In this document: piece by piece, positions 7,897-22,259 of the stretch | Layout: every line of letters begins with the position of its first letter | Position numbering within the stretch: the first letter of the stretch is position 1 | Source: a virus | IMG/VR virus record: IMGVR_UViG_3300023184_000295 | Span: 1-37,265 of that record | Reading direction: 5' to 3' (one strand) | Length of the DNA: 37,265 nucleotides | Notes under the pieces: model-generated | Seen by the model: only the letters and a program-made list of their open reading frames with translations | Databases searched by the model: none | Told to the model about the DNA's origin: nothing | Translations under genes and position numbers: made by a program

Positions 7897-7904
7897 TATT
7901 TATA
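7897..7904 (-). promoter_or_regulatory. T4-type late promoter for the tape-measure/head operon
   Basis: Minus strand reads CTATAAATATACC, an exact match to the T4 late consensus TATAAATA. It ends 25 bases before the tape-measure ATG at 7872, leaving room for a short leader. gp55, the sigma factor for such promoters, is encoded in this window. The element overlaps the ribosome-binding site of the divergent gp26-type gene (AGGTGAG at 7904-7910). Confidence 0.6.
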
Positions 7905-10710: not shown

Positions 10711-10977
10711 TTAAGTGTTAGGATTAATATAACCTTTAGGAATCCAATTAACAAATTTGCCACCGCATGTGTTGCAGATTACTTTACCTGCATGTGGTCC
10801 GGTGGACTTGTTAACAATTTCCCAATCGTGGTCTTTGTGAATGCCTAGTTGTTGCCTGAGTTTTGTTCGTTGATTGTGCCATGCTTGATCAAATCCAGTT
10901 TTTGGGTTGGTCCAATACGGGTCGTTTAAAAAACCAGTATCGCTTTTGTTAGTTTTATTATAGTCAAGTTTTGTCAT
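10711..10977 (-). CDS. Small zinc-ribbon-like protein, 88 aa
   Basis: An 88-residue polar protein overlapping the end of the GIY-YIG gene by four bases (ATGA), so it is translated in the same message. Its C-terminal third, GPHAGKVICNTCGGKFVNWI at 60-79, holds a CxxC pair (Cys68, Cys71) with nearby His62 and His50 that could complete a zinc site, followed by a Trp-containing KFVNWIPKG strand. This single-knuckle pattern occurs in small proteins of T4-like phages, where its function is unknown. The N-terminal half (DPYWTNPKTGFDQAWHNQRT) is helical and charged. Linkage to a nuclease-like gene hints at nucleic acid work, but this is inference. Confidence 0.65.
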   Translation of the reverse strand: MTKLDYNKTNKSDTGFLNDPYWTNPKTGFDQAWHNQRTKLRQQLGIHKDHDWEIVNKSTGPHAGKVICNTCGGKFVNWIPKGYINPNT

Positions 10978-11402
10978 ATTTTGTCAATGATGTGACTGCC
11001 GTGTACCCTAACTTGGATATGCCCATTGTAATAATCTCGTGATTCTAATACTCTTCTTGAAAATTGTTCCCTAGCCTCAATGTAACTACATTCAGACTTG
11101 CTTTTGCAATAGTAAAGTATTTCTCTGGTAAAGTTTTCGGTGCCTAGTTTGATTACGTCTGCGGTTAATTCTGGGCTTGACCCATAGTACTCTCTCCAAT
11201 CACTGTCGATCTTGGAGCGTATCTTCTTCCGCTTTTTGTTGCCGTTTTTTTGTTTTACAGTCTTGTATGTGGTTTTGCTAAATTTTGCTAATTTTTTGCC
11301 TATGTACTTGCGTCCAGTGAGATTACATGTGATCAAGTAAACAAATCCCACACAGTCTTCGGGCAACGTCTCAATTGGGGTATCTTGATATAGCCATGTC
11401 AT
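10974..11402 (-). CDS. GIY-YIG family endonuclease-like protein
   Basis: A 142-residue protein with the GIY-YIG nuclease core. GFVYLITCNLTGRKYIGKK (residues 19-37) carries the two strands equivalent to GIY and YIG. A long basic insertion (KTVKQKNGNKKRKKIRSK, 47-64) and the helix DWREYYGSSPEL follow. YIEAREQF (108-115) supplies the conserved Glu at 109, and YYNGHI supplies the late Asn. In the family this domain makes single-metal DNA cuts, and phages carry it as free-standing homing endonucleases or as repair and recombination nucleases. No separate DNA-binding domain is present, so specificity may come from the basic insert or a partner such as the zinc-ribbon gene it overlaps. No intron or inserted host gene is evident beside it, so a homing role is not shown. 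Confidence 0.78.
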   Translation of the reverse strand: MTWLYQDTPIETLPEDCVGFVYLITCNLTGRKYIGKKLAKFSKTTYKTVKQKNGNKKRKKIRSKIDSDWREYYGSSPELTADVIKLGTENFTREILYYCKSKSECSYIEAREQFSRRVLESRDYYNGHIQVRVHGSHIIDKI

Positions 11403-11459: not shown

Positions 11460-12083
11460 TTATATTGTTGATTGCTGTTGCTGTAGCGTTGTTACTTTTT
11501 GATAGATTTCTTCCAGTAAATGTTGTGTGTTTTGTTGCTCTGCTAGTTCAATCTGTTGTTGCTTTTGTGATAAAAAACTCAATACAGGTATGCCTAGTTT
11601 GATTGTCCAATTTCCATTTTCGCCCATGGTCAAACTGTGATTGGGTCCGGTATCAATCCCGTTATGCAAAAAATACTGGCGCTTGGTTGAATCAAGATCC
11701 ATAATATATGCACCTAGATCTTGATAGAGCAATTTGGTTTTCACAAGATCCACACCATTGATCACAATTTGATCAATAATCAGTTTTTGATTTTGTAAAA
11801 TTTGACCTTGATCATCAACCACAGTGTCATGATCTGTTTTATTATAATACACAATATCTAATACGCAACACTTTTGATCCTGTGTTGCTATGAATTCGTA
11901 ATCTAAACACTGGGTACCAATTATGGCACAATCTTCCAGCAGTTGTTGATTGAAACTGATCCTGACACAAGGCCAACGACCTTGTGCAGAAACTCCGGTC
12001 ATGGTCAGACTGATCTTGACCTGTTGAAAATTCAATTGGGCCCGTATTGATTCAGGAATCAACTGATGCAGTGTGTTCTTCAT
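11460..12083 (-). CDS. Unknown 207-aa protein, beta-rich, possible carbohydrate-binding-like
   Basis: A 207-residue protein whose start overlaps the end of the radical SAM gene upstream by 32 bases, so it belongs to that operon. Residues 20-165 look like an all-beta sandwich: alternating strands such as KISLTMTGVSAQGRWPCVRI (about 23-42), then CCVLDIVYYNKTDHDTVVDD (about 72-91), then QKLIIDQIVINGVDL. The YYNKTDHDTVV and IDQIVINGVDL motifs recall calcium-dependent xylan-binding modules (CBM36/60-like) and related phage proteins, but the similarity is weak. The last 40 residues are Gln-rich and coiled-coil-like. It may act with the radical SAM enzymes, or may be a virion decoration. I cannot assign a reaction. 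Confidence 0.55.
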   Translation of the reverse strand: MKNTLHQLIPESIRAQLNFQQVKISLTMTGVSAQGRWPCVRISFNQQLLEDCAIIGTQCLDYEFIATQDQKCCVLDIVYYNKTDHDTVVDDQGQILQNQKLIIDQIVINGVDLVKTKLLYQDLGAYIMDLDSTKRQYFLHNGIDTGPNHSLTMGENGNWTIKLGIPVLSFLSQKQQQIELAEQQNTQHLLEEIYQKVTTLQQQQSTI

Positions 12084-13524
12084 ATAGTCTAAGTTGATTC
12101 AATATTAAATGCAGTTCTTCTATACCATTGCTGGTCATGCCGGTACCCATCTCGTCTAGTATGACCTGGGCAACGACATGACGCCGTACTCGTTCCAACC
12201 AGGTGTTTGTGGGATCATCAACAGTGCCCCAGTCAAATGTATTGCGGTGATTGATCACGATGCCCAGTTGTTCAGCATGTTGATGAAGATATCCTTCGGG
12301 TTCAATCATCAAGGGCGGTCCCATGGCAATCTTGCTAATCACGCCGGCAGCAACATAACGATGACATCTCACAATAAACTCCAGAGTCTCAAGATAACGT
12401 TCCCAAGTTTCATTGTGAAAGCCATTCATCATGAGCAGTTGTGCCTGAAGACCGTGTTGTTCAAATTGATCTAATTCTTCAAATATGTCTTGCACAGCCA
12501 TTTTCTTTTGCATGGCTGCCAACACTGCGTTGCTGCCACTTTCGGCTCCGATGATCAAATTCACTGCACCTGATCTTTTGATCTTGTTATAGATGCCAGA
12601 TGGAATTTGTGATTGTGGCCTACAAATGTATTGTCCGTACCATGAGATTTTTTTATCAACAGGTTGTTGATCGTTGTAGTCAGCAATGATTTCTATCCAT
12701 TCATAAAAATCTCGTTGACTACCATTCACAAGACTATCAGTAAATTCAAATTTGGTAATATTATAACGCTGACTCAACTCAATCAGTTCTTGTGCCACAT
12801 TCTTTCCAGTTTTACGTCTGAAACTGCCAAACTTTCTTGGCACATTGCAAAATGTACAACTTCTAACACATCCTTTACTGCTGGTCACAGTGACCACAGG
12901 AACAGTGTGCCAAATATACTTGTCAAGTTGATAGTCATCAAAATTGGGTACCGGTACATCATTCATGTCAACAGGCAAGGATGTCAGGGCCTGGCCGGCC
13001 AAAACATCAACAATACTTTGTTCGCCTTCGCCATAGATAACATGATCTACCAACCGGTGAAATTGCATGTACTGGTCAAACTTTTTAAAATCAGCAGTCA
13101 AAAATCCCAAGAAGGTATCATCAACTGGCTCAGGAACTCCGTAGCCGCCGAGTATGATTTTGACTGCGGAAAAGGATTTGCGAAGTTCTTGACACAACAA
13201 CACACAAGCACGATGTTGAAAAGTACTAAAAACACTGAATGCCACAAACTTGGGATTTTGTTCCTGAACCAGTGTGCAAAAATCTTTGATCCATTGGTCA
13301 ATTTGCTCGGTTCTATCAAACTGGTTGTATGGTTCAAATTTTTTGCTTTGTTCGTAGTAAAGATCAAAATTTTTATTGCATTGATTGATATAAAAATTTA
13401 GCGAAAGATCTTCGGTCCTGGCAGCAAATCCCGCAGATTCTGCACAGGCTTTTAAAATTGCCGGAGCCGCAGGGGGACGATTGATCACACCAGATGGTAA
13501 ACTGCAAATCAAAACATCAATCAT
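12052..13524 (-). CDS. Radical SAM protein with N-terminal B12-binding-like domain
   Basis: A 490-residue enzyme of the class-B radical SAM type. Residues 1-210 look like a Rossmann-type cobalamin-binding-like region (MIDVLICSLP at the start, KIILGGYGVPEP near 122-133, YGEGEQSIVDV near 164-174). The usual DxHxxG cobalamin ligand motif is not visible, so base-on cofactor binding is doubtful. The radical SAM core begins at SSKGCVRSCTFCNVP with Cys219, Cys223 and Cys226 (CxxxCxxC) to hold the 4Fe-4S cluster. Later segments such as IIGAESGSNAVLAAM and QAQLLMMNGFHNETWERY fit the barrel. Relatives methylate, methylthiolate or rearrange unreactive carbons. The gene starts one base before the previous stop region (TGATATG) and shares an operon with gp46/gp47 and two other radical SAM enzymes. 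The substrate is unknown. Confidence 0.82.
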   Translation of the reverse strand: MIDVLICSLPSGVINRPPAAPAILKACAESAGFAARTEDLSLNFYINQCNKNFDLYYEQSKKFEPYNQFDRTEQIDQWIKDFCTLVQEQNPKFVAFSVFSTFQHRACVLLCQELRKSFSAVKIILGGYGVPEPVDDTFLGFLTADFKKFDQYMQFHRLVDHVIYGEGEQSIVDVLAGQALTSLPVDMNDVPVPNFDDYQLDKYIWHTVPVVTVTSSKGCVRSCTFCNVPRKFGSFRRKTGKNVAQELIELSQRYNITKFEFTDSLVNGSQRDFYEWIEIIADYNDQQPVDKKISWYGQYICRPQSQIPSGIYNKIKRSGAVNLIIGAESGSNAVLAAMQKKMAVQDIFEELDQFEQHGLQAQLLMMNGFHNETWERYLETLEFIVRCHRYVAAGVISKIAMGPPLMIEPEGYLHQHAEQLGIVINHRNTFDWGTVDDPTNTWLERVRRHVVAQVILDEMGTGMTSNGIEELHLILNQLRLYEEHTASVDS

Positions 13525-13525
13525 A

Positions 13526-14398
13526 TCAGGTTAATTCTAATTCTCTTTGCCACTGACTGCTGAATTTGGTTTCTGTGTGGTCTGTACCACAAATATCCAT
13601 GCATATGGCATTGGGTTGAGTGCTGTGCCACGAATTTTTCACAGATTCAAAATCCGTAATAAAATCCTGTTGCCTTGAACCCAGCCAACAGCAAGGACTG
13701 GTTCTTGCTTGTGCGTCAATAAAAAGACTCTGTTCCTTCAAGGCATGACAGTTTATGCTGGTGGCTTGAATCATTGATTGAGCCCAACCAGAAGGAAATT
13801 TTAGTTCGTTGGTAAATCCACGCCGCGACACCTTGGCTCTGAACCACTTGAATCCCATGTCCCGAGCCAGTTGCTCGCACTCATCTACTTGGTGTTGATT
13901 GTGTTGATATACCAGCATGTCCCAGTGCGCCGATCCACCTGCTTCAATAAAACTGCGAGCGTTGCTCATGAGTTTAGCCCAGTTCACGTTCTTGCGATAG
14001 GTAGCATTGGTTGACTCCAGGCCATCGATTGAGAATACCACATAGTCTCTTGGCTGATTGAGTATCTTGGCCAGTTCGTACCACCAGACAGTGGTTTGTA
14101 TACCACCATTGCTGTTCATGCCCAACACAATGTCAGGATTGATTTTTCTAAATGCTCTATAGATGTCCAAGGTATACTTACCAGCGGCTGGATCTCCGTA
14201 GTTGCCGCACATGAACATTTTGTCCAGTTGACGAATTTTTTCTTGATCAAATATCTGCAGAATTTTGTCCATGGCAAGATGATGCTGACGATCTTTTTTG
14301 AAGTCAGGATCAGTTTCTCTAGCACACAGAGCACATGCGGCCTGGCACACGTCTGTGGGCTCAAGATGCAGTACTTTTATGTCACGCAAGGTCCACAT
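13526..14398 (-). CDS. Radical SAM/SPASM-like protein, 290 aa
   Basis: A 290-residue radical SAM enzyme with the cluster motif close to the N terminus: LEPTDVCQAACALCARE, with Cys18, Cys22 and Cys25. FMCGNYGDPAAGKYTLDIYR (about 62-81) corresponds to the GGEP-like SAM-binding strand, and VVFSIDGLESTNATYRKN is the typical SIDG segment. The C terminus has a SPASM/twitch-type cysteine set (INCHALK, SPCCWLGSR, CMDICGTD) that would bind an auxiliary Fe-S cluster. Such enzymes commonly modify peptide or protein side chains, though carbohydrate and cofactor substrates are also known. It overlaps the end of gp46 by 17 bases and is immediately followed by the B12-type radical SAM gene. No short precursor peptide gene is visible nearby. 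Confidence 0.85.
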   Translation of the reverse strand: MWTLRDIKVLHLEPTDVCQAACALCARETDPDFKKDRQHHLAMDKILQIFDQEKIRQLDKMFMCGNYGDPAAGKYTLDIYRAFRKINPDIVLGMNSNGGIQTTVWWYELAKILNQPRDYVVFSIDGLESTNATYRKNVNWAKLMSNARSFIEAGGSAHWDMLVYQHNQHQVDECEQLARDMGFKWFRAKVSRRGFTNELKFPSGWAQSMIQATSINCHALKEQSLFIDAQARTSPCCWLGSRQQDFITDFESVKNSWHSTQPNAICMDICGTDHTETKFSSQWQRELELT

Positions 14399-16145
14399 CC
14401 GTGTTATAGGTAGTGAAACCGTTTTCTTTCACAACCTTGAGTATGTTTTCTACTCGCCCGGCCAGTTCGTCCTTGTGACTGACCAGCCAGATACTCTTGT
14501 GACGTTCTCGACTCATTTTCTTCAGTAGTCCAAGTCCGTTTTCCACGCCCTGTGAATCTAGACCGTTGTCCATGAGTTCGTCGATAAACAACAAGTTGAT
14601 AGGATGATACAAACTTTCCCAGACATCACGAAATGCCCAACTCATGCTCAAGATCAGTCTAGTGCGTTCGCCTCGGCTCAAGTTGTCAAAGTCCAGTTCG
14701 CGCCCCAGTTCTTCGATACTCACAGTGAGATCGTTCTGGAACACCACTGTATGCGGCAAGCCAATACGATCCAAATAGTGTGTGAGTCTTGCGTTCAAAT
14801 AACTCAAGTTCTGATCAATGATCTTTTTACGCACAAATGAATCTTTTGATGTCAACAGTTTGAGCAAGAATTCTTGATGATCCTGCAGTCGAGTAAGTTC
14901 GTTTAACACATCATAAGTCACAGTCTGCAGAGCCTGTCCTTGCATGTCTGAGATTTGTTCTTCGTAAGGATCCACTTCTGCGGATCTAGTGGACAAATCT
15001 TTGCGCAAAGTTTCTACGCTGTTGCGATGGTTCAGGGCCTGTTCTAATGAGTCATAAAACACTATAGGTGCCTTACCTAACACCCCAATCTGGGCAATGG
15101 TATCCTCATGCTCGGTGCGTTGTGTGTGATTAGCCAGGAGTTGTAGTGCTGTTTCTTGTACCAGAGCCTGTTTGGCCTGTTTCAATTCGTCTTGCTTGTC
15201 GTCATGCAGGTCTTGGCCACACGAATGACACTGGTGAGCATCCAATGCCGCAATTTCAGTCTTGAGTTTTTCTAATATCTTGTTTAGTTTGACATCATCA
15301 GCATCGATCTGCCGAATGTAGCGACCAGCATCGTCTAGAGATTTTTTCTTCACATGATACGCTTCGAGATCTCTGTGTGCTTGTACTTCTGCATCAATAT
15401 CGATGTGTTCAAGATCCTGAATGGCCTGTTCCAGTTTGCCCACATCTTCATCACGTTTGGCAATCCATAACCGCTGACGTTTGCGCAGACTTTCAATCTG
15501 TTCTTCGATGCGCTTGTTGGCTTCCTGTACAGCACGTATGCGGAACTCTTCTGCTTGAATAGCATCTTTGGTTTGCCGGTTGAGTTCTTTGATCGCGTCA
15601 GCACGTTCTGATAGCAAGGTAATACCCAACAACTGCTCAATGATGGTGCGTTGGTCATTGGCTTTTAAACTCAAGAATGGTTCTGTGTAGGTATTTAAGG
15701 CCAGCACATGTTTGAACATGTCATGACTCATATTCATTATCCGTTCGATCGCCTGTTGTGTTTCCCTTGAATCGCCTTGTGCTTCGTCTGTGGCAGTTTG
15801 TGCTTGATCGTTGATGTAAAATTTTAGCACATTGGGCTTACGACCACGCTCAATTCTATAAGTTTGACCTCCCACCACAAAGTCTAGACTGACCAACATG
15901 TTTTTGCCATTGGTCTTGTTTACCAGATTGTCTTTGCGTATATTGGAAAGTGCTTGCCCATACAAGGCATAACTCAAGGCATTAATGATTGTGGTCTTGC
16001 CTGTGCCGTTACGGCTTCCATCGCCGCCTAGATCCAGGTTCTCGCCCAACACAAGTGTAAGATCCGAACGATCAAAATCAATGCCTTGGGTGGCCGCACC
16101 CACACTCATGAAGTTTTTTACTGTGAGATTTTTAATTTGGATCAT
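14382..16145 (-). CDS. gp46: Recombination endonuclease subunit gp46 (Rad50/SbcC-like ATPase)
   Basis: A 587-residue SMC-type ATPase. With gp47 it forms the T4 recombination nuclease that resects DNA ends for recombination-dependent replication and host DNA breakdown. Seen in sequence: an N-terminal KNFMSVG strand, Walker A GSRNGTGKTT at 43-52, a long coiled coil (about 175-300), a zinc hook CHSCG with Cys306 and Cys309, the returning coil, the ABC signature DNLSRGERTRLIL near 487-499, Walker B INLLFIDE near 516-523, and the H-loop WLVSHKDE near 553-560. Length agrees with T4 gp46 (560). In T4 gp47 lies directly upstream apart from tiny genes. Here a 494-residue radical SAM gene is placed between them, overlapping the start of gp46 by four bases. 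Confidence 0.96.
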   Translation of the reverse strand: MIQIKNLTVKNFMSVGAATQGIDFDRSDLTLVLGENLDLGGDGSRNGTGKTTIINALSYALYGQALSNIRKDNLVNKTNGKNMLVSLDFVVGGQTYRIERGRKPNVLKFYINDQAQTATDEAQGDSRETQQAIERIMNMSHDMFKHVLALNTYTEPFLSLKANDQRTIIEQLLGITLLSERADAIKELNRQTKDAIQAEEFRIRAVQEANKRIEEQIESLRKRQRLWIAKRDEDVGKLEQAIQDLEHIDIDAEVQAHRDLEAYHVKKKSLDDAGRYIRQIDADDVKLNKILEKLKTEIAALDAHQCHSCGQDLHDDKQDELKQAKQALVQETALQLLANHTQRTEHEDTIAQIGVLGKAPIVFYDSLEQALNHRNSVETLRKDLSTRSAEVDPYEEQISDMQGQALQTVTYDVLNELTRLQDHQEFLLKLLTSKDSFVRKKIIDQNLSYLNARLTHYLDRIGLPHTVVFQNDLTVSIEELGRELDFDNLSRGERTRLILSMSWAFRDVWESLYHPINLLFIDELMDNGLDSQGVENGLGLLKKMSRERHKSIWLVSHKDELAGRVENILKVVKENGFTTYNTDVDLA

Positions 16146-17626
16146 AGTTGTTTATTATACACATATCCCATGGCATTTGCGATCTCAGGATGTGAATCTG
16201 AGAAACTTTGATTTCGTAAGGAATCAAAATGTGTGGTGAGTTTTACAAATCCTTGTCCAGTGCTATCGGGCAGGGTTGAAAGCATGGCCAGGATATTCTT
16301 CATCTCTGGCCAGGGATTGTTCCTGTGTTTGTTGATGATCAAGTGTTTGGCTTCTTTGGTCAAGGATGACAGTGCAAACATACTTGGACTCTTCACATAG
16401 TTAGGATATACAGGAATGCCATGTTCATTACCCCAATCCAACACTTCATCGATGTAAAGTATGTTCATCGCACTGATACTCAAGAAGATTCTGATTTTGC
16501 AGTTTGGTAGATTCAAATCTTGTATGGCCAGAATATTTTTTTCTACATCGGACCATTTGCCCCCGCGTTCTAGTTCAAATCTTGATCCAACAGCGTCTAT
16601 GCTGAAGTGTATGTCAACTTCTTTGAAGTGAGAGAAATACGATATTAGATTCTTTGGGTACACAGAACCGTTGCTGTTGAAGTGTAGACGTATGTTTTTG
16701 CATGCCGAAGTTTCCACAGCTTTGGCCAGCAGCTCTGGTATTTTTTTGTTCAAAAACGGCTCACCACCATAGAACTCAATGTTCCTCAATGATGGTAGCA
16801 AATCTTTTATCTGATCTATTAGGTGATCAGAAGCAGGTTGTAGATTATTTTTGATTCTGGTGTTTTTGGAATGTTCCTGTGCGAACAGCGAACTATGATC
16901 AGAATCACAGATTCTGCATTTGAAGTTGCAGGTGTTATCCAAGTTTAAATCTAAACTACGGATCTTGGGTTCATCAATGTATTGGGTCAACAAATCTTTC
17001 ATAAAAACTGTGTTGGCAAAGTTTCTAATACTGGTAATCCCAAGATTTTCATTGTTCCAGCAAGAGTTGCATGACAACGGACGCTGTCCTGCTAACATAC
17101 TTTGACGAAGTGTTTGTACTTGATCAGATTGGAATAAATCATTGAGATTTTTTTCGGTACTTCCCAACACAGTAGCACTAAGACAGCAAGACCGCACAGT
17201 GCCCACAGTGTCAACTCGTAAATTCATCCAGGGCAACGCACACATGGTGTCAGACAGAACAAAACGATCTGACAATGGTTCAGTGTTAACAAGGTCCATT
17301 GTCACTGTTTGAAAACACACAGGATCTGTTGAAAAGCGCAACGCCTCTTGTGTGAGTTCACTGCTGTCTGTGGCACAGACGATGAGAACAAAAAAGTTTG
17401 AAACATCTATTAGGTTCGCAGCCTGATAGAGATGTGCGATTAGATTGGATGTGACTGCTTCAGAAGTATACAGCACCAAACGATCGTTGGACTGGTATTC
17501 AGTTTGATAGTATTTATCAAAGAACTGATAGGCTGCTTGAGGGCTGTGCGTAAGAGTAGCAAGATCAATAAAACTTTTGAGAGTGTATTGAGTCTCTAGC
17601 CTTGCCCTGAGTTGATCAACTGTCAT
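16142..17626 (-). CDS. Radical SAM protein with N-terminal SPASM/twitch cysteines, 494 aa
   Basis: A 494-residue radical SAM enzyme of the phage twitch-type. The N-terminal 120 residues are an alpha/beta region without recognisable family. Then follows a cluster-binding segment with Cys129 (CALPWMNLRV), Cys147/148 (RSCCLSA) and Cys186/189 (LSCNSCW), which resembles a SPASM/twitch domain placed before, rather than after, the core. The core has DLNLDNTCNFKCRICDSD with Cys233, Cys237 and Cys240, NIEFYGGEPFLNKKI as the SAM-binding GGEP motif, and HFSIDAVG. It is wedged between gp47 and gp46 by four-base overlaps on both sides (ATGA), so it must be co-translated with them. Substrate unknown. Enzymes of this type are known from many uncultured phages without an assigned role. 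Confidence 0.86.
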   Translation of the reverse strand: MTVDQLRARLETQYTLKSFIDLATLTHSPQAAYQFFDKYYQTEYQSNDRLVLYTSEAVTSNLIAHLYQAANLIDVSNFFVLIVCATDSSELTQEALRFSTDPVCFQTVTMDLVNTEPLSDRFVLSDTMCALPWMNLRVDTVGTVRSCCLSATVLGSTEKNLNDLFQSDQVQTLRQSMLAGQRPLSCNSCWNNENLGITSIRNFANTVFMKDLLTQYIDEPKIRSLDLNLDNTCNFKCRICDSDHSSLFAQEHSKNTRIKNNLQPASDHLIDQIKDLLPSLRNIEFYGGEPFLNKKIPELLAKAVETSACKNIRLHFNSNGSVYPKNLISYFSHFKEVDIHFSIDAVGSRFELERGGKWSDVEKNILAIQDLNLPNCKIRIFLSISAMNILYIDEVLDWGNEHGIPVYPNYVKSPSMFALSSLTKEAKHLIINKHRNNPWPEMKNILAMLSTLPDSTGQGFVKLTTHFDSLRNQSFSDSHPEIANAMGYVYNKQL

Positions 17627-18639
17627 AGCGTCTGATAAATCTTCAACAGCAATTTGTTGTCGTAGAATTCTGACTCAATATTGGTGATCTGATCTATGAC
17701 AATTTGATCCACAGATTCAAATTTAACTTCGCCTGGTGCCATGTCAGTGTCTACTGAACTATTTTTATTTGGTATCAAAGCCATCTCTCTGAGAGCATAT
17801 TCTTTAATATACGTTTCTTTGATAAAATTTGCTTCTTCATAACTAATCTCAATATCCAATTGCACACGAACATGCATGCCTGGCGCAAGTAAAGTGGGTG
17901 CGTTGTCAATGATACTGGCCAAGCCTAACACACGGTAACGTGGTTGATCAGGCCAAGCATGAAACTCAGGTTCTCGGCCCCACTCTAGTATCATCATGCC
18001 ACGTTCATCATCTCCGGCATCAGCATAGTTGTGCGGAAAGCAATTGCCAATGTAGGTAATGTTCTTTTTGGTTTGACGTTTGTGAAAGTGTCCGGTAAAC
18101 ACATGCTCAAAGTTTCCAAAGTCTTCTCTGCGAACTTCCCCATGATCCGGCATCTCTACCATGGCGTTCATCAGGTATCCAGGTAGTTCAAAGTGCCCGA
18201 ACATGTACTTGCCCTTTAGTTTGGGAATACGTTTGTGGTCATCGGCTACAAGCCAAGGAGCAATGACAACGTCGCCACTGCTAAACCAATCGTTACATAT
18301 CTGTACACGGGGGAGATGCTTTGCCCATTCCACACTTTGTATGTCGCGCTTGTCTCGATAATACAAATCATGATTACCAGGAATGAAATACACGTTTTCA
18401 AAATTGTCATTCATGTGCTCCAGTGCCTGCAGGCTGTAGTTTAAGGTAACAATGTTTAGGCTGGCACGATTGTTGTGCCAATCACCAAGAAACAAACAGG
18501 TTTCACAGCCTTCGGCCTTTGCTTTAGCAGTTGCCCACTTGACAAAATTTAGGCAGTCCTCATTGTGTTGAGTGCTGTTGCTTTTCAAGCCAAAGTGAAT
18601 GTCGGTGAACACCGCGGCTTTACGAAATAGGTTAGTCAT
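17623..18639 (-). CDS. gp47: Recombination endonuclease subunit gp47 (Mre11/SbcD-like)
   Basis: A 338-residue calcineurin-like metallophosphoesterase, the nuclease partner of gp46. All metal-binding motifs are present in order: FTDIHFG (Asp13, His15), LGDWHNN (Asp53), PGNHDLYY (Asn89, His90), FGHFELPG (His149) and TGHFHKRQ (His184, His186). The length equals T4 gp47 (339). It sits 12 bases after the gp55 stop and overlaps the following radical SAM gene by four bases, so gp55, gp47, radical SAM and gp46 are probably one message. No mutation of a key residue is seen. Confidence 0.96.
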   Translation of the reverse strand: MTNLFRKAAVFTDIHFGLKSNSTQHNEDCLNFVKWATAKAKAEGCETCLFLGDWHNNRASLNIVTLNYSLQALEHMNDNFENVYFIPGNHDLYYRDKRDIQSVEWAKHLPRVQICNDWFSSGDVVIAPWLVADDHKRIPKLKGKYMFGHFELPGYLMNAMVEMPDHGEVRREDFGNFEHVFTGHFHKRQTKKNITYIGNCFPHNYADAGDDERGMMILEWGREPEFHAWPDQPRYRVLGLASIIDNAPTLLAPGMHVRVQLDIEISYEEANFIKETYIKEYALREMALIPNKNSSVDTDMAPGEVKFESVDQIVIDQITNIESEFYDNKLLLKIYQTL

Positions 18640-18651
18640 CCCGCTATTATA

Positions 18652-19548
18652 CTACTCATCAAGACTACTTACGACCGGTCCGGACATGGCTGCCATTGAG
18701 TGTTTGCCAGAGTTCTGACGAGTCCATGAAGGATTGAGTCCGTTCATCTCCAAGATGTCATCACGTATGTTTTGATTTTTCTTTTCGATGTTCAGGATAC
18801 GAGTGAAACTATTAGTGATAGCGGCAGTATAATACGCAAAAGGGTTCTGCGATTTCGACTCATCAAATTGCAGTCCGATTTGACTGAGTTGTAGCAGGGC
18901 TTGTCCCCGCATTTCTTCGTTGTAGGTGTATCCACGCCAGTTGCTCCTTGTTGCATATCTTTCGCATAATTTCATAAACATCAGGGCCAATTTCTTGGTC
19001 ATGTCGCCATGATCTTTGGAAAACTCCCCGGTGGCCAAATCGCCACGCCAGTGTGAGCGACCCACAATGTACGGCTTCTTTTCTTCGTCAATGCGATAGT
19101 GCTCAAACGGTGGAAAGTTCACACGCATATGATTCATGTCCAGAACAGGCACATCCACAATATCAGCCAAGGGATCTTCTTCTGTAGCATCGTCTAGGTC
19201 CAGAATGTCTTCTAGTTTGCGACGTTTGGCCTCTGCCTTGGTAATTTTTTTGGGTGCCCGGGGTATGTGATCCCAGCAGGTGATACGGAACACAATGTCT
19301 GTATTGGGTATCTTTTTGGGGTCTACAATGGTGCCTTCACGCTTGAGCCGATCTGCCCGATTGCGTCGGGCTTCTGCAATGGTACGTTGATTGATCTTGT
19401 CTATTGATGGCAAAATAATATCAAATTGGTGGTCCATTGCTCTGTCTTGGAACCAACAGTAGTTGTTTTTGCTGAGATGAATCTCTTTTAGTATATCTCT
19501 GTTGTTGAGATAGTTCACACGCGGTGCCGCTTTGGGTAGTAAAGTCAT
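18652..19548 (-). CDS. gp55: Late-transcription sigma factor gp55 with N-terminal extension
   Basis: A 298-residue protein from ATG 19548. The C-terminal half, from HGDMTKKLALMFMKLCERYA through YNEEMRGQALLQLSQIGLQF to NPFAYYTAAITNSFTRIL, is the sigma-70 region-2-like core of T4 gp55, which directs host RNA polymerase to TATAAATA late promoters with help from gp33 and gp45. T4 gp55 is 185 residues. Here about 110 extra residues precede the core, containing YLNNRDILKEIHLSKNNYC and a basic RRNRADRLKREG segment. An in-frame ATG at 19587 would add 13 residues, but 19548 is preferred because AGGAGA lies 11 bases before it and a late-promoter-like AATAAATA falls between the two. The adjacent gp47 matches T4-like order. 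Confidence 0.88.
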   Translation of the reverse strand: MTLLPKAAPRVNYLNNRDILKEIHLSKNNYCWFQDRAMDHQFDIILPSIDKINQRTIAEARRNRADRLKREGTIVDPKKIPNTDIVFRITCWDHIPRAPKKITKAEAKRRKLEDILDLDDATEEDPLADIVDVPVLDMNHMRVNFPPFEHYRIDEEKKPYIVGRSHWRGDLATGEFSKDHGDMTKKLALMFMKLCERYATRSNWRGYTYNEEMRGQALLQLSQIGLQFDESKSQNPFAYYTAAITNSFTRILNIEKKNQNIRDDILEMNGLNPSWTRQNSGKHSMAAMSGPVVSSLDE

Positions 19549-19570
19549 GAGTGACTGGGTCTCCTGTATG

Positions 19571-19578
19571 TATTTATT
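19571..19578 (-). promoter_or_regulatory. Late-promoter-like motif before gp55
   Basis: Minus strand reads ACAATAAATACATACAGGAGA: AATAAATA differs from the T4 late consensus TATAAATA at one base and is followed by the gp55 ribosome-binding site. gp55 could therefore be partly self-regulated. Confidence 0.4.
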
Positions 19579-19636
19579 GTAGCACATTTACAACAGTTGT
19601 CAACCTGTTTGTTAAAATACGCCGTTAATAAAATGG

Positions 19637-19661: not shown

Positions 19662-22259
19662 ATGGCTGACACTCCCACTGGCTCAGGTAGCAATGGCGGA
19701 ACAACTACAGTAGTAGCAAATCCACCTAATCCTCCTACGACCAATACAGTACCTAATACCACAACAGACGCAAAAACTGTACAGTATCAATCTGCAGTAA
19801 CTGAGTCTGTATTTGATCCACGCCAAGATGTGGGAGAAAATGTATTCGACCCAGGTGCAACATTCAATGATCCAGCAACTGAAGAGTCTGTATTTGATCC
19901 AAGACAAGACGTGGGAGAAAATGTATTTGATCCTGGCGCCGCACTTCCTAATCCATCTGTAACAACGGCAGCACAACTCAATGATCCTTATGCTGGACTC
20001 TCACCAACACAATTGCAAGATCTTGGCGGAGCAGATCCTACAGATCCTTATATTCGTGCTAGACTGGGCATACCACAACTGCCTGGATCCACGCTAAATG
20101 TCACTAGTGGATTTGGATTTGGCAATCTAAACACAGGTTTACCCAGTATAGATAATGCACTGGGCACTATCAAAGGCTTATTCAGTGGCATACTCGGAGG
20201 AGGTGCAGGCGGAGGCGCAGGACTAAGTTCACTGTTTACTAATTTCTCTGCCACTGTGGGCGGCCTGTTTGGTAGCAAGCCTACTGCTGGTGTTACAGCC
20301 GCAACCACAGGCTCAGGAGTGGCTGCCTTGGTGGCACCCGTAGGTCCCTCCACAACCTTAACACCAGTTGACGCAACCACAACAGAAGGTTTTGGTATTC
20401 AAGCCACAGTTGATCCAACTACACTGGAAGGCTTTGGTGTTCAGGCTTCAGTTGACCCAACCACGCTAGAGGGATATGGAATTCAAGCCACAGTTGATCC
20501 GACCACTTTAGAAGGATATGGAGTACCAGCAACAGTTAACAGCACTACGTTGAATGCCGATCAAGCAGATGCTTTTTACAATGGCACTGGAACATTAACT
20601 GTCGAACAACGCCTGTCGCAAGATCAAAAAACAGCCGCTGATGCCGCAAAACTTTACCCAGGCTCGAACAACGAAGCATTGCGACAAATTGATATTGGTG
20701 CTGGTCGTATTGCTGAAAATGAAATTGGTATCGCCAACGCTGAACAAATTGTTGCTAGAAACAATGCTGAACTTGCTGACCCTTTTATCTCAAATGCCAG
20801 ACGAGCAGAATTAGAAGCCAACAATGAATCACAATACGAATACATTCAAGTTGCTACAGAAAATATAGCAATACAAGAAAATGTAATTGAACAAAATGCT
20901 AACGTGTACGCGGCAGGTGGTGGTAATCCAGACAGCGGACAAGGACCAAATGAAGTCAGTGCTTTAGCAGACCCAGCAGTAGCACAAACACCAGTCGACC
21001 CAACTACTTTAGAAGGCTTTGGAGTACAAGCACCAGTTGATCCAACTACTCTGGAAGGTTATGGAATACAAGCCACAGTTGATCCGACCACAACAGAAGG
21101 CTTTGGAGTACAAGCACCAGTTGATCCAACCACACTAGAGGGGTATGGGATACAAGCCACAGTTGATCCGACCACAACAGAAGGCTTTGGAGTACAAGCA
21201 CCAGTTGATCCAACCACACTAGAGGGGTATGGGATACAAGCCACAGTTGATCCGACCACTTTAGAAGGTTATGGATTACCAACGGAGGCTCCAGCAGAGG
21301 TTAACATGGAAGGCGGCGGCGATGGGCTTGGAATAGGCCAAGGCGCCAACGATGCAATTTCTGCTGACAACGAATTTATTGCCTCTACTGAAAGTCAATT
21401 TCAAGGTAGTCAACAATCTGCTATTAAAGATCTAGCACAAAAGCAAGCCACAATCCAAGCACGTTACAAACAACCAGGCAACACTGACTGGCGAGTAAGA
21501 CTAAGTCTCGCACCAAATGCAAAGTACCTGTACAATGCTGCCGATCCAGGTATATTGGCACCCTTGGCTGCTGGTAAAGGCACCGATGGTGTGATATTTC
21601 CTTACACCCCCAGCATAACCACAACTTATTCAGCCAACTATGAACAGTACGACCTAGTGCATTCGAACTATCGTGGCCTGTTCTACAAAAATTCAAGAGT
21701 AGGTGACATTCAAATACGCGGTGTGTTTACCGCACAAAATACCACAGAAGCCAACTATCTGCTGGCGGTGATACATTTCTTTAGATCAGCAACCAAAATG
21801 TTCTACGGACAAGATCCACAACGCGGCACACCTCCACCCATATGTTTGTTGAATGGGCTTGGTGGCTATCAATTTTCAGATCATCCGGTAGTGATCAGTT
21901 CATTTAATTACACCTTGCCCAATGATGTGGACTACATAAGAACAACCAATCCCAACAACTTTGGCCTGAATTTGGCCAATCGCTACAACACATCTGGTGC
22001 CAGTTTACCGGCCGGCGGTAGCCTGGCCGGTTTAACAAGATTGGCCAATGCTTTATTGCCCAAGGGTGCGCAAAGACCACCAGCACCAGACAACACAGTG
22101 GCAGGCAGTGTCACAAACAACACACCAGCAAGTTATGTACCAACCAAGATGGAAATTGATATAACACTAATACCTGCACAGACACGCAGTCAAATCAGCA
22201 AGCAGTTCAGTCTTGAAGGCTTTGCCAATGGCAAACTGCTACAAGGAGGATTCTGGTAA
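19662..22259 (+). CDS. Baseplate tube-cap-like structural protein (gp48/gp54 type) with long repeat-rich N-terminal part
   Basis: An 865-residue protein with two halves. Residues 1-560 are low-complexity: Thr/Pro-rich start, a 27-residue duplicated ESVFDP/ENVFDP block (48-91), Gly/Ala-rich stretch (150-235), a 14-residue repeat array at 236-291, a helical Gln/Asn/Ala region at 292-440 and a second array at 445-542. Residues 590-865 are a folded domain with DWRVRLSLAPNAKYLYNA, IFPYTPSITTTYSANYEQYD, IQIRGVFTAQNTTEANYLLA, FFRSATKMFYGQD and FSDHPVVISSFNYTLPNDVD. This strand pattern is like the tail-tube fold shared by T4 gp19, gp48 and gp54. It is the first gene of the baseplate operon and overlaps the next start (TAATG). 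T4 gp48/gp54 are 320-365 residues, so the N-terminal part is extra. The specific T4 equivalent is uncertain. Confidence 0.6.
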   Translation: MADTPTGSGSNGGTTTVVANPPNPPTTNTVPNTTTDAKTVQYQSAVTESVFDPRQDVGENVFDPGATFNDPATEESVFDPRQDVGENVFDPGAALPNPSVTTAAQLNDPYAGLSPTQLQDLGGADPTDPYIRARLGIPQLPGSTLNVTSGFGFGNLNTGLPSIDNALGTIKGLFSGILGGGAGGGAGLSSLFTNFSATVGGLFGSKPTAGVTAATTGSGVAALVAPVGPSTTLTPVDATTTEGFGIQATVDPTTLEGFGVQASVDPTTLEGYGIQATVDPTTLEGYGVPATVNSTTLNADQADAFYNGTGTLTVEQRLSQDQKTAADAAKLYPGSNNEALRQIDIGAGRIAENEIGIANAEQIVARNNAELADPFISNARRAELEANNESQYEYIQVATENIAIQENVIEQNANVYAAGGGNPDSGQGPNEVSALADPAVAQTPVDPTTLEGFGVQAPVDPTTLEGYGIQATVDPTTTEGFGVQAPVDPTTLEGYGIQATVDPTTTEGFGVQAPVDPTTLEGYGIQATVDPTTLEGYGLPTEAPAEVNMEGGGDGLGIGQGANDAISADNEFIASTESQFQGSQQSAIKDLAQKQATIQARYKQPGNTDWRVRLSLAPNAKYLYNAADPGILAPLAAGKGTDGVIFPYTPSITTTYSANYEQYDLVHSNYRGLFYKNSRVGDIQIRGVFTAQNTTEANYLLAVIHFFRSATKMFYGQDPQRGTPPPICLLNGLGGYQFSDHPVVISSFNYTLPNDVDYIRTTNPNNFGLNLANRYNTSGASLPAGGSLAGLTRLANALLPKGAQRPPAPDNTVAGSVTNNTPASYVPTKMEIDITLIPAQTRSQISKQFSLEGFANGKLLQGGFW
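19803..19940 (+). repeat. 27-residue in-frame duplication with ESVFDP/ENVFDP motifs
   Basis: Protein segment ESVFDPRQDVGENVFDPGA occurs twice with an 81-base period (residues 48 and 75), giving four VFDP motifs. A further EESVFDP is found in the hub-like protein encoded at 22562 (residues 283-289). Confidence 0.85.
20367..20576 (+). repeat. First array of 42-base coding repeats (VDPTTLEGYGIQAT)
   Basis: Four clear 14-residue units start at 20367, 20409, 20451 and 20493, followed by a decayed fifth (VNSTTLNADQADA). Units alternate FG and YG forms and differ at synonymous sites, which indicates an old array. Confidence 0.9.
20994..21287 (+). repeat. Second array of seven 42-base coding repeats, with exact 84-base duplication
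   Basis: Seven units of the VDPTTLEGFGVQAP / VDPTTLEGYGIQAT type. Bases 21078-21161 and 21162-21245 are identical over 84 bases, so a two-unit block was duplicated recently, in frame. Confidence 0.93.

Follow-up and report, generated by a model that had tools for sequence, protein, structure and literature searches.

T4-type phages rich in radical S-adenosylmethionine (SAM) enzymes have been noted since 2010. According to the accessible parts of the respective papers, which state no substrate for these enzymes, the Campylobacter phages CP220 and CPt10 carry 11-12 radical SAM genes each, including an interchangeable module of five (PMC2853527); a T4-like Tara phage carries 12 such genes (PMC5332604); and pelagimyophages acquire radical SAM cassettes within their gene cluster for host recognition (PMC7029224). 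Here we analyze a stretch of 37,265 nucleotides (nt), hereafter the window, that comprises positions 1 to 37,265 of the IMG/VR virus record IMGVR_UViG_3300023184_000295 and contains three radical SAM genes, denoted RS1, RS2 and RS3, among the genes for the late sigma factor gp55 and the nuclease subunits gp47 and gp46. Given that genes for a portal protein (phrog_213), a head maturation protease and baseplate proteins are found elsewhere in the window, the virus is a T4-type phage. The locus is a modular early locus of the kind known from radical SAM-rich phages, and its three radical SAM genes are independent, swappable cassettes rather than parts of a fixed pathway.

The gp55-gp47-gp46-segE operon and its slots

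The minus strand of the window carries, from position 19603 to position 10711, a single compact run of genes, given here in the order of transcription (aa, amino acids):

19576..19603, minus strand: predicted sigma-70 extended -10 promoter before gp55, TTGACA-N16-TACAAT with TG 5' of the -10 element (11 of 12 consensus matches)
18652..19587, minus strand: gp55, late sigma factor (phrog_12791, 258 bits)
17623..18639, minus strand: gp47, SbcD-like nuclease subunit (phrog_100, 214 bits)
16142..17626, minus strand: RS1, N_Twi-type radical SAM enzyme of 494 aa in the gp47/gp46 slot (NF033640 and PF04055)
14382..16145, minus strand: gp46, SbcC-like nuclease subunit (phrog_77, 331 bits)
13526..14398, minus strand: RS2, twitch-type radical SAM enzyme of 290 aa (PF04055, 52-sequence alignment, AlphaFold2 model)
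12052..13524, minus strand: RS3, B12-binding-like (class B-like) radical SAM enzyme of 490 aa (PF04055, weak PF02310)
11460..12083, minus strand: orf207, small partner of RS3-type enzymes, without a family match, with homologues near B12-type radical SAM genes
10974..11402, minus strand: SegE-like GIY-YIG endonuclease, the downstream end of the backbone (PF19835, 116 bits) and the next backbone gene past gp46 in relatives
10711..10977, minus strand: orf88, open reading frame (ORF) and final gene of the run, with a homologue 3' of segE in the related loci L196, L198 and L210

The three radical SAM ORFs are intact and lie where a preliminary description of this DNA had placed them. All exceed the Pfam Radical_SAM (PF04055) cut-off of 29.5 bits (RS1, 46.8; RS2, 34.6; RS3, 42.5) and contain the CX3CX2C motif at the residues named there (233/237/240 in RS1, 18/22/25 in RS2 and 219/223/226 in RS3). 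The PHROG matches to SbcC and SbcD identify gp46 and gp47 as the T4-type proteins; these matches and those to PF04055 are well beyond chance. The reported 4-nt overlaps of RS1 with both gp47 and gp46 and the 1-nt gap between RS2 and RS3 were recovered, and the overlap reported between gp46 and RS2 can be specified as 17 nt. Comparison with relatives suggests that the true start of gp55 is near position 19548 (MTLLPK...).

One reading offered in the preliminary description was that the three enzymes form a multi-step pathway, and the genomic context in relatives does not support it. Searches of IMG/VR yielded more than 200 close relatives of RS2 and almost none of RS1 or RS3. We compared two samples of loci, one chosen by RS2 (78 loci for the measurement of spacing) and the other chosen by gp46 alone (76 loci, of which 66 are independent and 38 complete). 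Among the RS2-chosen loci, the order gp55-gp47-gp46-RS2-segE seemed universal. In the 66 independent gp46-chosen loci, the backbone gp55-gp47-gp46-segE stays the same and three slots vary in content; these are occupied in 11 of 41 loci (gp55/gp47), 31 of 58 (gp47/gp46) and 49 of 61 (gp46/segE); where RS2 is absent, segE directly follows gp46 or a different radical SAM gene is found there. About half of the cargo ORFs in these loci (86 of 173) were called as radical SAM genes by profile searches. The number of radical SAM genes per complete locus is 0 in 11 loci, 1 in 13, 2 in 10 and 4 in 4; N_Twi-type enzymes are present in 8 of the 38 and B12-type enzymes in 4, with both in a single locus, which is about chance.

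Each radical SAM type is thus found without the others, in differing slots and copy numbers, and a three-gene unit is unsupported; independent occurrence and chance-level co-occurrence rule out a fixed three-enzyme pathway. Such independence is what the preliminary description had itself named as evidence against its reading. The order gp47-RSAM-gp46-RSAM-RSAM recurs only in pieces: L039 and L199 show orders of the gp47-N_Twi-gp46-RS2-RS2b type, and L204 has a relative of RS1 3' of gp47 with B12-type and twitch-type enzymes 3' of gp46. There may be a loose association of the types, similar trios recurring in L204 and L072.

The remaining cargo is diverse. It includes GT-B glycosyltransferase-like proteins, SGNH-like proteins (DUF6071), amidinotransferase/arginine deiminase-like proteins, 2-oxoglutarate oxygenases, short-chain dehydrogenase/reductase (SDR) proteins, a nucleoside diphosphate (NDP)-sugar epimerase, a UDP-glucose-dehydrogenase-type protein, homing-type genes and sulfotransferase-like P-loop proteins, the latter read from sequence and without a Pfam match. 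In one locus (L056:1942-6216), a Rieske ring-hydroxylating dioxygenase pair, an AMP-ligase and a TctC-type solute receptor are encoded between gp47 and gp46, and the same catabolic-looking cassette, whole or in part, occupies this slot in L224 and L229. In PA5oct, the nearest isolate (gp46 50% identical), the gp55-gp47-gp46 slots are empty, indicating that the junctions ancestrally lacked cargo and that the genes were gained.

In relatives, the region upstream of gp55 contains the predicted promoter site in 33 of 38 cases. Within the window, the strict pattern is found at this site only; 79 related loci contain it 34 times before gp55, once just inside gp55 and nowhere else, so this is likely the sole promoter of the operon, its function being deduced from sequence and conservation. 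This makes it most likely that the radical SAM genes are transcribed early, as part of the gp55-gp47-gp46 message, and, given the tight packing as well, likely that they share the timing of these genes, as the preliminary description proposed. The proposed coupling to the DNA-end nuclease appears to be a property of the slot, because sulfotransferase-like, glycosyltransferase-like, homing-endonuclease and dehydrogenase genes are placed likewise.

Two other observations in the window concern late and structural genes. A single T4-type late promoter motif, TATAAATA, is located at positions 7897-7904 on the minus strand, 5' of a gene for a 903-aa protein (chance expectation 0.83), and the 865-aa structural protein encoded divergently from gp55 (19662-22259) shows numerous degenerate repeats of the form VDPTTLEGYGIQAT.

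The radical SAM enzymes and their slot partners

The preliminary description assigned RS1 to the twitch, RS2 to the SPASM and RS3 to the B12-like class B type. For RS2, the alignment of 52 sequences contains, in addition to invariant C18/22/25, the invariant cysteines C217/236/266/270 and a nearly invariant C237. Four invariant C-terminal cysteines and the absence of a match to PF13186, the Pfam model of the SPASM domain (the seven-cysteine C-terminal domain with two auxiliary clusters), indicate a twitch-type enzyme, whose half-SPASM C terminus has about four cysteines, rather than a SPASM-type enzyme. The AlphaFold2 model of RS2 (predicted local distance difference test score, pLDDT, 82.7) has the predicted fold of twitch/SPASM radical SAM enzymes such as BlsE, MoaA, BtrN and SkfB, the Z scores being 17.0 for BlsE, 16.3 for SkfB, 15.7 for MoaA, 15.5 for SuiB, 15.4 for anSME and 14.9 for DesII, with PqqE also among the neighbours. 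Cysteine pattern and fold together place RS2 in the twitch group, in which the Fe-S cluster itself is predicted. The fold is that of the known structures (BlsE, SkfB, MoaA, DesII, BtrN), with BlsE the best match; RS2 differs from them in the lack of a sequence match in the PDB and in the replacement of the GGEP motif by CGNYGDP, which includes the invariant Cys64. The preliminary description had called for structure prediction with substrate pockets; the fold matches of RS2 do not discriminate between a sugar and a peptide as substrate.

The median ratio of nonsynonymous to synonymous substitution rates (dN/dS) of RS2 is 0.09 (12 pairs), which indicates purifying selection, as previously surmised from the intact motifs. 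In 74 of the 78 RS2-chosen loci, RS2 is located 14 nt past gp46, counting from the stop codon of gp46 to a fixed reference codon close to where RS2 begins. RS2 seems universal only in the sample chosen by it and is present in 28 of the 76 gp46-chosen loci, so a core gene functionally tied to gp46 can be rejected; RS2 is a frequent cassette at a fixed spacing from gp46. Apparent pseudogene copies of RS2 were also dismissed, because the stops appear only upon translation from the tblastn start and the ORF begins a few codons later. Bacterial relatives of RS2 offered no functional guide: the sole genome match, contig L100, which is assigned to a Pacearchaeota metagenome-assembled genome, encodes a 42% relative of RS2 along with phage-like genes and is probably a misbinned phage contig. 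In L012 (6044-7810) and L013 (5503-7290), as read from sequence, a twitch-type radical SAM domain in the RS2/segE slot is fused to an SDR-type dehydrogenase, and in L229, L230 and L234 the SDR protein is encoded by a separate neighbouring gene.

RS1 is a member of the N_Twi_rSAM family (NF033640; 289 bits against a cut-off of 170, residues 125-484). The twitch assignment holds, with the SPASM/twitch domain (PF13186, residues 129-190) N-terminal of the radical SAM core. The RS1 clade (the window, L204, L039 and L197) is confined to the gp47/gp46 slot, every member being located immediately 3' of gp47. RS1 and other carriers also contain an extra N-terminal domain of about 95 aa, with a homologous counterpart at the N terminus of the slot GT-B proteins (hhalign E 1.4e-9). 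The same domain is found in a 565-aa radical SAM protein of the array described below (L094:6433-8130), that is, in the core array as well.

The model of the slot GT-B family itself (pLDDT 78.7) adopts a GT-B fold, and the best fold matches are glycosyltransferases: T4 beta-glucosyltransferase (BGT; Z 12.0 and 11.4, the top match with a root-mean-square deviation of 4.7 over 281 aligned residues), TarM (11.2), the glycosyltransferase of phage HY126 (10.8), FucT (10.6) and T4 alpha-glucosyltransferase (AGT; 10.3); a PDB sequence search gave no match. The close Z scores of these matches establish a glycosyltransferase-like fold without specifying the acceptor. The N-terminal domain that RS1 shares with this family suggests a common acceptor for the two enzymes.

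For RS3, the B12 half of the assignment is a weak match: PF02310 scores 18.6 bits against 32.1 and covers residues 80-129 only, followed by the radical SAM core. Every top NCBIfam model is below its cut-off, and the best of these, the C-methyltransferase family of ribosomally synthesized and post-translationally modified peptides (RiPPs), TIGR03975, scores 92.1 bits against 281.85, so RS3 is not assigned to it. The adjacent orf207 had no family match in Pfam, PHROG or NCBIfam searches; its homologues adjoin B12-type radical SAM genes in L038, L072, L234 and L239, and recurrence of the pair immediately 5' of segE in L234 and L239 indicates that the RS3-type and orf207-type genes form a real sub-unit.

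A second radical SAM locus and candidate functions

Radical SAM genes are present in 13 of 14 long records of relatives, with 3 to 19 in each. Most of these records contain a second cluster that consists of five N_Twi-type genes, a carbamoyltransferase gene and genes for further enzymes, including SGNH-like, amidinotransferase-like and sulfotransferase-like neighbours; the carbamoyltransferase is present in 13 of the 14 records. Seven arrays were analyzed (L089 and L091-L096, in records G002, G003, G004, G006, G007, G008 and G011). A tree of 62 N_Twi proteins resolves the array genes into five clades of their own, all of them represented in each of the seven arrays; the slot proteins are polyphyletic with longer branches, at least 4 changes being forced by well-supported branches; some branches are long, so that deep placements are uncertain. 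This topology points to the array as the conserved core and to the slot enzymes as members of the same superfamily that were added later, on repeated occasions. The two largest records, G001 and G002 (337 and 320 kilobases, kb), encode two A-type Fe-S carriers (PF01521) each, and the other 12 records encode none; such carrier proteins have likewise been reported for another radical SAM-rich phage.

The explanation that we favour, at about even confidence, is that the radical SAM enzymes perform sugar or glycan tailoring and that the operon from the sigma-70 promoter through gp55, gp47 and gp46 to the segE-like gene serves as a dock for cassettes. Foreign genes would insert at the stop/start junctions while the tight packing is kept, leading to early co-transcription. 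Beyond the observed architecture and promoter, the cargo is probably also translationally coupled. The 5'-deoxyadenosyl radical would serve each enzyme in the oxidation, epimerisation, dehydration or methylation of a carbon on a sugar-like acceptor. The five-N_Twi and carbamoyltransferase locus would be the conserved core of this chemistry, on which the slot cassettes would build variable tailoring. The target would most likely be a glycan of the host surface or the virion, with DNA as the main alternative. The link to sugars comes from the GT-B fold matches, the N-terminal domain of RS1, the sugar-type, SGNH-like and amidinotransferase cargo, the prevalence of the carbamoyltransferase and the gene neighbours in phages CP220 and Mosig.

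Several points weigh against this explanation. The fold neighbours of RS2 tie sugar or nucleoside enzymes (BlsE, DesII) with peptide enzymes (SkfB, SuiB, anSME); some of the cargo is not glycan-like (the Rieske dioxygenase pair, the AMP-ligase, TctC and a sodium symporter); there are hardly any GT2 glycosyltransferases; an early promoter would suit modification of the host or of DNA equally well; and the five-gene array was not seen in the 37 kb that cover the virus of the window itself. The sugar-like substrate is a proposal. A bolder version, speculative and in our view doubtful, is that the slot radical SAM and GT-B enzymes, fed by the five-gene/carbamoyltransferase array, build a new phage-specific hypermodification of DNA or a virion glycan; RS1 would then combine a radical enzyme with the domain by which a T4-type glycosyltransferase binds its acceptor, and phages would swap the last tailoring step at the early recombination operon.

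DNA hypermodification, the DNA-related chemistry raised in the preliminary description, would make the slot the counterpart of the T4 DNA-modification locus: RS1, the GT-B enzyme and others would modify phage DNA as it replicates or afterwards, so that it resists host nucleases and stays compatible with gp46/gp47. The position of the T4 alpha-glucosyltransferase gene between 47 and 55, the best match of the slot GT-B model to T4 BGT, with AGT also among the matches, the GT-B-type domain of RS1 and early co-expression with recombination genes are all consistent with such a role. However, PF00303, the dCMP/dUMP hydroxymethylase or thymidylate synthase family, was found in none of the 14 records (up to 337 kb, some of them fragments), which discounts hydroxymethyl-pyrimidine modification of the T4 kind and is the reason for preferring sugar or glycan tailoring. 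Furthermore, there was no TET/JBP match, although the control for this search was uninformative; QueC gave just marginal, weak partial matches in 2 of the 14; TarM is within about one Z unit of BGT, with the phage glycosyltransferase and FucT close; and slot content differs wildly among close relatives. We therefore consider this alternative unlikely.

Modification of a protein or peptide, which appears distinctly unlikely, would have the twitch/SPASM and B12-type enzymes act on a virion protein or a RiPP-like short peptide, with orf207 as the substrate or recognition partner of RS3. SkfB, SuiB, anSME and PqqE among the fold neighbours of RS2, the sub-cut-off RiPP C-methyltransferase match of RS3 and the travelling of orf207 homologues with B12-type enzymes would fit. 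Yet the locus, tightly spaced up to segE, contains no precursor-like peptide gene, no RiPP model reaches its cut-off, and the companions are mostly sugar-type rather than peptide-type enzymes.

Host takeover or counter-defence, in which early radical SAM products would target a metabolite, nucleotide or tRNA of the host, for instance by viperin-like chemistry or tRNA modification, is very unlikely. The early promoter and a distant resemblance of RS1 to viperins (NF038283, 36 bits; PADLOC pVip, 39 bits) are compatible with it, but the viperin cut-off is 180 bits and RS1 scores far above the N_Twi cut-off instead, so that RS1 is not a prokaryotic viperin and the counter-defence suggested earlier finds no support of this kind; no defence-related family matched RS2 or RS3, and the diverse cargo indicates no single defence target. 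Least probable of all is a passive hotspot, in which homing and recombination across the conserved flanks bring in genes that have no functional tie to gp46/gp47: homing-type genes do occupy slots, the cargo types are unrelated and the slot enzymes are polyphyletic, but half of the cargo belongs to one superfamily, RS2 keeps its spacing and low dN/dS, and the arrival of genes is accounted for rather than the retention of radical SAM enzymes.

Comparison with described phages

In T4 (NC_000866), the genes agt, mobB, 46.1 and 46.2 occupy the same positions among 55, 47 and 46, with a DNA-modifying glucosyltransferase, a homing endonuclease and small ORFs as extra genes in the same backbone; unlike the window, T4 has no radical SAM genes there and no segE-like gene directly 3' of gp46. 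Relative to NF033640, RS1 is a full-score member distinguished by the additional N-terminal domain common to the GT-B slot proteins.

CP220 and CPt10, which are distantly related to T4, contain a module of about 10 kb with five radical SAM genes and a glycine amidinotransferase gene (PMC2853527); in CP220, the radical SAM cluster is located beside amidinotransferase and NDP-sugar transferase genes. According to the accessible part of the paper, the module is in the central part of the genome and not within gp55-gp47-gp46, and the radical SAM sequences are distant (26.5% for RS2, over half its length). In the Mosig isolate, a radical SAM cluster with a carbamoyltransferase and an ArnB-like aminotransferase adjoins the tail fibre genes. 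The Tara phage and the pelagimyophages are likewise radical SAM-rich T4-type phages with cassette-like gain and loss and with tail fibre and surface-sugar gene neighbours; the gp47/gp46 slot, the early promoter and the domain common to GT-B and radical SAM proteins are not described in the accessible parts of these papers. In the openly accessible literature, subscription papers aside, we found no paper linking phage radical SAM arrays with a carbamoyltransferase. By the same measure, the use of the gp55-gp47-gp46-segE operon as a radical SAM dock under one conserved promoter is new, as are the fixed-spacing RS2 cassette, the domain shared by RS1 and GT-B proteins, and the orthologous core of five radical SAM genes and a carbamoyltransferase. 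The radical chemistry known from these phages now appears in exchangeable cassettes, which occupy the phage's most conserved early operon behind one early promoter, and what would be a list of many odd auxiliary metabolic genes becomes, through two proteins that share a domain, a set of specific, testable questions on substrate.

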